Assembly (NCBI GenBank): GCA_021375695.1 | Contig: JAEPKX010000007.1 | Location: 1 to 60,160 of the forward strand | Reading direction: 5' to 3' | Source of the DNA: Candidatus Igneacidithiobacillus taupoensis | GTDB taxonomy: Bacteria; Pseudomonadota; Gammaproteobacteria; Acidithiobacillales; Acidithiobacillaceae | DNA: 60,160 bases | Shown: piece by piece, positions 1-60,160 of the stretch | Layout: each line of letters starts with the position of its first letter | How positions within the stretch are numbered: position 1 is the stretch's first letter | Program-made: the position numbers and the translations under genes | Notes under the pieces: generated by a model | Database searches by the model: none | What the model was told of the DNA's origin: nothing | What the model saw: the letters and a program-made list of their open reading frames with translations, nothing else

Positions 1-95
1 GCGCCCAGAATCACGGAGCGATGGGAGATCGATTTATCACCGGGTACCCGAAGCCTACCTCGCAGACGGCCTCCGGATTGAACGAGATAGTCCAT
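1..95 (-). CDS. aroA: 3-phosphoshikimate 1-carboxyvinyltransferase (EPSP synthase), N-terminal part
   Basis: Only the first 31 codons lie in the window; the gene runs off the left edge. From the ATG at 95 the frame reads MDYLVQSGGRLRGRLRVPGD and then KSISHRSVILG, the hallmark N-terminus of EPSP synthase; the PGDKSISHR motif binds phosphoenolpyruvate and shikimate 3-phosphate. The enzyme makes EPSP in the sixth step of the shikimate pathway. It begins 8 bases after the tyrA stop, with GAGGA from the tyrA end as a plausible ribosome site. The tyrA-aroA order is common in proteobacteria. The identification is firm despite the short length. Confidence 0.9.
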   Translation of the reverse strand, partial: MDYLVQSGGRLRGRLRVPGDKSISHRSVILG

Positions 96-103
96 ACAAA
101 TCC

Positions 104-982
104 TCAGTGGGGAGGAAAGAGAAAACGAGAGCGTGCCTCTTGCCCTTGCGCCAGGAAATTTTCCAGGGAAGTCGCATCGGCATGCTCCAGGAATGCTTCC
201 ACCTGGGCCAGTCGCTTTCGAAAATTGCGCAACTCTTGCCCGACCGCTTCGCGATTGCCCAGGAGAATCTCGGTCCACAGTTTGGGATTGGCTGCGGCAA
301 TACGACTAAAGTCCCGTAGCCCGCCACCGGCACAATTCCACAGTTCTTTGCGCTCGGCAAAGCCAGCAAGATAGGCAAAGGCCAGCAAATGGGGCAAATG
401 ACTGGTTGCAGCCATGATCATATCGTGCTTCCTGCCGTCCAGGATCAGCAACTCCGCCCCCAGAAATTGCCAGAACGCAGCCACCTGGGTTAGGGCTTGG
501 GCCGGGCCATCGCTGCCAGGGCAGAGCACGCAACGATAGTCCTGATAGAGTTCCGCCGATGCACTGCCAAAACCGCGCCCTTCCGAACCAATCAAAGGGT
601 GGGAAGAAACATAGCGCTTTCCCAAAAGGGATTCTCCCAGGGTCAGCAGATCCCCCTTAACACTCGCCAAATCCGTCACCATGGCAGCGGCAGGAAGCCG
701 CTCGCTGGCCAGGACAAGATAACTGGAAAGATGGGCCGGTGGCACGGCCAGAATCAGAAAATCCAATTGCTCCCAGGGTAATTCCGAAACTTCGGCATAG
801 AGCCCGGTAAAAATGGATTTTCCCGATGCATCCTGCGCTTTGGCCGCCAGATGGAGATCTTCCGGGCTGCCGCCAGCCCCCCACAAGGCCCCCGCGTATC
901 CATGGGCACGCAGTGCCAGGGCGAGACTGCCACCCATGAGACCCAGACCAATGATTGCGATCCGCGAAAAAGGAATGACCAA
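104..982 (-). CDS. tyrA: Prephenate dehydrogenase
   Basis: Oxidative decarboxylation of prephenate to 4-hydroxyphenylpyruvate for tyrosine; cytoplasmic. The N-terminus RIAIIGLGLMGGSLALAL is a Rossmann GxGxxG dinucleotide site, followed by a TyrA-like helical C-terminal half containing GGGLRDFSRIA. About 292 residues, normal for a monofunctional TyrA with no chorismate mutase domain. I place the start at the TTG at 982 because AGGA lies about 7 bases upstream and the Rossmann motif follows within 10 residues; a longer frame to 1102 would lie inside aroF. It follows aroF by 8 bases. Use of arogenate as well as prephenate cannot be judged from sequence. Confidence 0.9.
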   Translation of the reverse strand: MVIPFSRIAIIGLGLMGGSLALALRAHGYAGALWGAGGSPEDLHLAAKAQDASGKSIFTGLYAEVSELPWEQLDFLILAVPPAHLSSYLVLASERLPAAAMVTDLASVKGDLLTLGESLLGKRYVSSHPLIGSEGRGFGSASAELYQDYRCVLCPGSDGPAQALTQVAAFWQFLGAELLILDGRKHDMIMAATSHLPHLLAFAYLAGFAERKELWNCAGGGLRDFSRIAAANPKLWTEILLGNREAVGQELRNFRKRLAQVEAFLEHADATSLENFLAQGQEARSRFLFPPH

Positions 983-57504: not shown

Positions 57505-57597
57505 TGGCGGAGAGAGAGGGATTCGAACCCTCGATGGAGTGTTTAGCCCCATACTCCCTTAGCAGGGGAGCGCCTTCAGCCTCTCGGCCATCTCTCC
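57505..57597 (-). tRNA. tRNA-Ser(GCU)
   Basis: A 93-base cloverleaf including encoded CCA (57505-57507). The acceptor GGAGAGA pairs with TCTCTCC; discriminator G; the anticodon stem-loop CTCCCCTGCTAAGGGAG gives anticodon GCT; the T arm is GAGGGTTCGAATCCCTC. A long variable arm between the anticodon and T arms marks the serine class. It reads AGC and AGU codons. Confidence 0.95.
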
Positions 57598-57606
57598 ATG
57601 CGCGGG

Positions 57607-57635
57607 AGTGTACCCCGAGCCATGGAGTTCGTCAA
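57607..57635 (-). promoter_or_regulatory. Promoter of tRNA-Ser
   Basis: Minus strand: TTGACG (57630-57635), a 17-base spacer, TACACT (57607-57612), followed by a CCCGCGC discriminator just before the tRNA, as expected for stringent control by ppGpp and DksA. Confidence 0.65.
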
Positions 57636-57696
57636 AAGAAAATCCATCCGTACATCTGGAGACATGGCTGGCGATGCCTTACAATGATTTGGTAAC

Positions 57697-57773
57697 GCGC
57701 CCATAGCTCAACCGGATAGAGCAACGGCCTTCTAAGCCGTAGGTTGGGGGTTCGATTCCCTCTGGGTGCGCCA
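57697..57773 (+). tRNA. tRNA-Arg(UCU)
   Basis: A 77-base cloverleaf including encoded CCA (57771-57773). The acceptor GCGCCCA pairs with TGGGTGC with one G-T pair; discriminator G; the D arm has AGCTCAACCGGATAGAGC; the anticodon arm CGGCCTTCTAAGCCG gives TCT; the T arm is GGGGGTTCGATTCCCTC. It reads AGA and AGG. TACAAT at 57680-57685 may be its -10. Divergent from tRNA-Ser across 99 bases. Confidence 0.95.
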
Positions 57774-59304: not shown

Positions 59305-59706
59305 TCAGGCAAGGGCAGGGCGCGAGCGAATCGGTACAATCTCCTTCCCAAAAGGTGCCAGGGCAAGGGCTGCCAGTTTTATGTTCTGGACCGCAAAGGG
59401 AATGCCGATGATGGTGATTGCGCACAGCAACGCACTGATCAGGTGACCCAGAGCAAGCCACCATCCGCACAACAGGATCCAGATGATATTGCCCAGGAGG
59501 CTGAGGGTCTTGCCGGCCGCGCCGGATGGCTTGTCGACAATTTCCCGACCAAAGGGCCAGAAGGAAAAGGTGCCAATGCGGAAGGCAGCGATGGCCCACG
59601 GGATACCGATGATGGTGATGGCAGATAGAATCCCTGCAATCCACCAACCAAGTCCCATTAGTAGCCCCCCAAAGAGAAACCAGATAATGTTGCCCAGCAA
59701 ACGCAT
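59305..59706 (-). CDS. yccF: YccF domain-containing inner membrane protein
   Basis: 133 residues made of two similar halves. Each half has a hydrophobic LLGNIIWxL segment (RLLGNIIWFLFGGLLMGLG and SLLGNIIWILLCGWWLALGH), then AITIIGIPWAIAAF or AITIIGIPFAVQNI and a FGxEIV tail. This internal duplication is the YccF hallmark. Function is unknown; it is predicted to lie in the inner membrane. AGGAGG lies 7 bases before the ATG at 59706. Confidence 0.88.
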   Translation of the reverse strand: MRLLGNIIWFLFGGLLMGLGWWIAGILSAITIIGIPWAIAAFRIGTFSFWPFGREIVDKPSGAAGKTLSLLGNIIWILLCGWWLALGHLISALLCAITIIGIPFAVQNIKLAALALAPFGKEIVPIRSRPALA

Positions 59707-59795: not shown

Positions 59796-59960
59796 TCAAT
59801 CCCCAGTCATCTCCGAGATCCGATACCGTACGGCTCTTGGCGTCATCCCATAGAGGGACGCCACCGCCTCGATAGGCTGGCCAGCCAGCAGTAGCGCCGC
59901 GAATGCCCTTTCCTTTCCCCGAGGACTTTCGATGGCACGATTTGCGTCACACCTGGGCAT
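59796..59960 (-). pseudogene. Short helix-turn-helix-like fragment, origin unclear
   Basis: An open frame reaching 60056, of which only the C-terminal 40 residues look protein-like: ERAFAALLLAGQPIEAVASL and then YGMTPRAVRYRISEMTGD, resembling a helix-turn-helix segment. Upstream of about 59925 the frame is antisense to the recombinase remnant and is probably meaningless. The start shown (ATG at 59960) is nominal. I do not recognise the family. It may be a tail of a lost gene of the same mobile element. Confidence 0.3.
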
Positions 59961-60109
59961 CCTGGCATGTGTAGGCGGGTACATCACTGTCGAAATTACA
60001 GGAAATGGGAGGTTGGAAATCGATTGAGATGGTGCGGGGCTATGCGCATTTGGCACCGGAGCATTTGGCGGTCGAGGTTGCCAATATCGAAGTTTACTTC
60101 AGGGGATGA
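59921..60109 (+). pseudogene. Tyrosine recombinase (phage-type integrase), C-terminal remnant with an internal stop
   Basis: In one plus-strand frame 59921-60109 reads EDFRWHDLRHTWASWHV, an amber TAG at 59972-59974, [20 protein letters not shown] and [19 protein letters not shown], ending TGA. This is the catalytic end of a tyrosine integrase: the HxxR box (HDLR), the GGWKS loop and the nucleophile tyrosine in YAHLAPEH. In relatives the codon at the TAG is usually glutamine (WHVQAGT), so a CAG to TAG change is likely. The N-terminal about 300 residues, including the first catalytic arginine, are missing. Not functional as it stands. Confidence 0.8.
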
Positions 60110-60160
60110 ATGGTACAAATATGGTTCAGGCAACACCATGGATTATATCAAAAATCCTAA
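60110..60160. other. Right edge, no feature recognised
   Basis: Fifty-one AT-richer bases after the recombinase stop. Short open frames exist but none is recognisable. It may belong to the element that carried the recombinase. Confidence 0.2.

Follow-up and report, generated by a model that had tools for sequence, protein, structure and literature searches.

At the right-hand end of the window (the whole 60,160-nucleotide stretch of DNA analysed here, corresponding to the complete contig C29) we very probably see a scar left by a prophage or genomic island: the element would once have sat at a tRNA-Thr(TGT) gene, inserted at the 3' end, and would then have been mostly deleted, leaving behind a dead piece of its integrase.

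A truncated and interrupted integrase end

The fragment on the plus strand represents the end of a tyrosine integrase (Table 1). Translating its in-frame TAG as glutamine, a profile search returns Phage_integrase (PF00589) with 47.3 bits (cut-off 27.1), and integrase families of the PHROG collection are also matched (best E 9.8e-19). The PF00589 match extends over profile positions 126–172 of 172, with the motifs HDLRH, GGW and YAH supplying the C-terminal block of the family (HxxR ... G-[HW] ... Y); nothing is found that corresponds to positions before 126, the first catalytic arginine, the catalytic lysine and the N-terminal DNA-binding domains all being absent. Since the missing part of the domain is where tyrosine integrases carry their first catalytic arginine and their lysine, the remnant cannot be active, and neither integrates nor excises. 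It is a pseudogene fragment rather than a working member of PF00589; the original prediction of a decayed tyrosine recombinase, cut at its N-terminus, is thus borne out by the significant profile match in the plus frame (frame 1 from 59801). The extent it had proposed (59921–60109) is correct as regards the integrase match, but homology runs on past 60109, in another frame, as far as the contig edge.

Three lesions can be distinguished. The N-terminal three quarters or so of the gene are missing, DNA similarity to all relatives starting at about 59920. The TAG occupies a position at which, as had been proposed, relatives carry glutamine: in all 78 of the scorable related loci, as well as in all six aligned relatives. 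Lastly, the proteins of relatives run about 15–30 residues beyond the stop of the window's frame, and their GT(N)xxQ tail is conserved (GTNMAQ or GTNTSQ); the equivalent tail in the window (GTNMVQ...) lies in a different frame, such that the TGA closing the fragment's own frame must come from a frameshift. With truncation, stop codon and frameshift combined the gene is dead, and not one base from intact; the added truncation and frameshift rule out the alternative of one altered base in a gene that is whole in every other respect.

The host genome contains four matches to PF00589, among which the fragment alone carries an internal stop. The other three are all open frames: two that, from reading their sequences, we take to be XerC/XerD-type, and one island-type integrase next to tRNA-Pro. 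The latter (L003; G000:C51:1972-2439) has an open frame of 366 codons and lies near a tRNA-Pro(GGG) gene. A sequence search finds no further copy of the integrase end anywhere in the genome.

Table 1. Features at the right-hand end of the window and across the join to contig C54
Feature	Position	Strand	Evidence
Intact YccF family membrane protein, flanking scar on left	59305..59706	-	PF03733 E 4.2e-38; orthologues in 6 relatives
C-terminal fragment of HTH (sigma-like) gene, N-terminal part gone	59799..59912	-	54% identity, E 9.3e-10, to C-terminus of 177-aa G008:C30 protein
Probable deletion junction joining two truncated genes	59913..59920	.	HTH homology ends ~59912, integrase DNA homology starts ~59920; consistent with a single deletion
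Tyrosine integrase C-terminal fragment, pseudogene	59921..60109	+	PF00589 E 2.7e-12; about 62–77% protein identity to better-matching integrases of relatives
In-frame TAG in integrase	59972..59974	+	Q at this position in 78/78 relatives
Frameshift region creating early TGA at 60107–60109	60090..60109	+	Non-multiple-of-three length differences from relatives; tail motif in another frame
67-bp overlap with C54 end	60094..60160	+	Exact sequence match
Integrase 3' tail plus DNA on attachment side; motif ATGGTACAAAT conserved	60110..60160	+	Shared by five related loci, next to this tRNA-Thr and to four further tRNAs
tRNA-Thr(TGT)	C54:33886-33961, 14 bp beyond 60160	-	3' end towards integrase remnant

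A tRNA-Thr gene across the contig join

The last 67 bp of the window recur without a difference at the end of C54, another contig of the genome, this being the single other copy of that sequence found by a search of the assembly. Joining the two contigs brings a tRNA-Thr(TGT) gene alongside the remnant, so that, across the join, the integrase end abuts the 3' end of the tRNA, as in an island or prophage. Independent support for the join comes from a genus-mate (G004), which is colinear with the window at 70% identity, without a break, from 59920 across the join and the entire tRNA. At the opposite end, window positions 1–126 form a 126-bp overlap with the end of contig C60; C60, C29 and C54 are therefore probably joinable.

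With the fragment lying less than 240 bp from a contig end, in a draft genome of 62 contigs whose overlaps here amount to 126 bp on the left and 67 bp on the right, an assembly or sequencing artefact has to be weighed: some of the population would then have a living element at the tRNA, and what we see would be a chimeric contig end or a consensus error. We consider this unlikely, as the fragment is contiguous with the YccF gene over 450 bp, the genome is without another copy of the integrase end, and an error could produce the TAG on its own but not the truncation against another gene fragment that forms part of the three lesions.

Beyond the tRNA, C54 encodes what we read from the sequence as a GH15 glucoamylase, an SDR and a GMC oxidoreductase, followed farther along by genes that, again on our own reading, are ribosomal protein L25-like, Pth-like and YchF-like; all are of chromosomal type. 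These genes bear on the suggestion that the fragment forms the left border of a genomic island lying to the right, one made where the available sequence stopped at the window edge and its reader was blind to anything beyond. Looking past 60160 for cargo, a second remnant or att repeats, we see an assembly break, then the tRNA and chromosomal-type genes, with no att repeat found; as the integrase end also faces the tRNA, which places the element on the other side, a right-hand island is very improbable.

The preferred orientation, with the element to the left, agrees with the layout of related integrases. From 80 relatives in named genomes, 78 had enough flanking sequence to be scored; a tRNA gene is present at most 600 bp downstream of the integrase stop in 66 of these, always pointing its 3' end at the integrase and never its 5' end. 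One relative comes from Acidithiobacillus marinus SH. Related integrases elsewhere in the family and class of the host have tRNA-Phe, Met, Pro, Asn, Ala, His and others close by. The integrase end in the window faces the tRNA 3' end in the same manner, indicating that the element extended leftwards, away from the tRNA. It lay to the left of the tRNA, and is now down to about 350 bp.

A second attachment repeat (attR), in the form of a displaced tRNA-Thr 3' end, was not found at the sensitivity used in the window, the joined contigs or the whole genome, which yielded nothing beyond matches at chance level and one other tRNA gene. This leaves the far end without an assignable position, and we file the locus as a scar rather than an island. 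Cargo and phage genes are likewise missing, a helix-turn-helix (HTH) fragment of ~40 codons alone being left. For the G004 element, a candidate 14-bp attR about 30 kb away was rejected as too weak (one mismatch, E 6.7). The tRNA has different neighbours in different relatives (five genus-mates carry cyo genes there, the genome of the window GH15), so there is no clean empty site for comparison; a search for one at YccF or GH15 in relatives was uninformative, neighbour order being unconserved.

Proposed decay of the element

The HTH fragment and the integrase piece both lack their N-terminal sides, and these lost sides face each other, as expected from one internal deletion; the two would derive from one element. 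The 177-aa best relative of the HTH fragment, encoded in G008, has parB as its neighbour, and the small contig concerned includes a lambda-type integrase gene as well. This HTH-type protein (L095:385-918), which has no Pfam, PHROGs, phage, plasmid or viral-contig match at the cut-offs used, is possibly a lineage-specific regulator of mobile elements. The integrase had been described as the only trace of mobile DNA in 60 kb; the HTH fragment has to be added to it, although inspection by eye of the longest ORFs in the rest of the window reveals nothing mobile, transposases included. Two further tRNA genes, tRNA-Ser(GCT) and tRNA-Arg(TCT), share a stretch of under 270 bp (57505–57773), one on each strand, between thioredoxin and HD-GYP-like genes.

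The history we propose starts with a phage-type tyrosine integrase, which would have inserted a prophage or genomic island at the tRNA-Thr(TGT) 3' end; to judge from relatives, its gene would originally have stopped just a few bases short of the restored tRNA. A later internal deletion would then have taken nearly the whole element, sparing roughly the last quarter of the integrase gene at the tRNA together with the last ~40 codons of the HTH gene, the latter presumably from the interior or far side of the element. The stop codon and frameshift show that the leftover no longer yields a working enzyme.

Over 48 codons, dN/dS is 0.11 and 0.12 against the two relatives for which the ratio can be estimated, while synonymous changes are saturated against two more. 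Differences being mostly silent, the decay is young relative to divergence from these relatives: selection acted on the integrase gene through most of its existence, and decay set in late. The low ratios could also be taken to mean that the fragment is kept for a new use, for instance as a small DNA-binding peptide; given the stop and frameshift inside the piece, and that selection before the decay accounts for the low dN/dS, we regard this as scarcely credible.

Related elements and meaning for the lineage

The closest counterpart of the scar is found in G004 (L029), where an intact 349-aa relative of the integrase is located at tRNA-Thr(TGT); the excisionase, RecT, CI-type repressor, replication-O-like and DnaC-type genes behind it identify its carrier as a prophage-like element. 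The two loci share the tRNA, the orientation, an integrase C-terminus at 62% identity and the conserved attachment-side DNA, but differ in that the G004 element retains its integrase, excisionase, RecT, repressor and replication genes, whereas the locus in the window measures only about 350 bp. Also behind the G004 integrase is a Tn7-like set (TnsA, TnsB-like, TnsC/TniB-like and TnsD/TniQ; L088:10501-16859, about 2085401-2091759 of G004:C1), close to an IS21-like pair and an ArdC-like gene; this set may or may not belong to the prophage-like element. Distant integrases (L062 in G007 and L070 in G023; 29% and 26% identity, respectively) lie next to tRNA-Thr(TGT) as well, so that more than one kind of element seems to use this gene.

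In Acidithiobacillus caldus, islands and ICEs located at tRNA genes have direct repeats on either side and an integrase beside the repeat, and the paper describing them includes an entry for truncated integrases (PMC3826726). The locus in the window resembles these elements in having its integrase at a tRNA gene; they however possess both attachment repeats and exceed 5 kb, in contrast to a locus at which neither cargo nor second repeat was found. Islander-type tDNA islands in general similarly combine a tyrosine integrase with a tRNA gene, but their far end is defined by the displaced tRNA fragment not found here (PMC4383910).

Within this integrase family, at least two further truncated copies (L011 and L012) sit beside tRNA-Asn and tRNA-His. 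Exact-phrase searches of the literature turned up little on integrase fragments at tRNA genes. We offer, as a tentative and rather doubtful generalization, that the integrase 3' end abutting a tRNA might in many cases outlast everything else in an integrated element, with such scars serving as a readable record of insertion. The locus itself is a product of ordinary bacterial genome decay: a further, strongly eroded case of the known tRNA-inserted elements, whose effect is small beyond gene annotation and the correct joining of two contigs. For the organism, it reveals tRNA-Thr(TGT) as a past insertion site in the host lineage, and the loss of a tRNA-inserted element by a small-genome member of the group.
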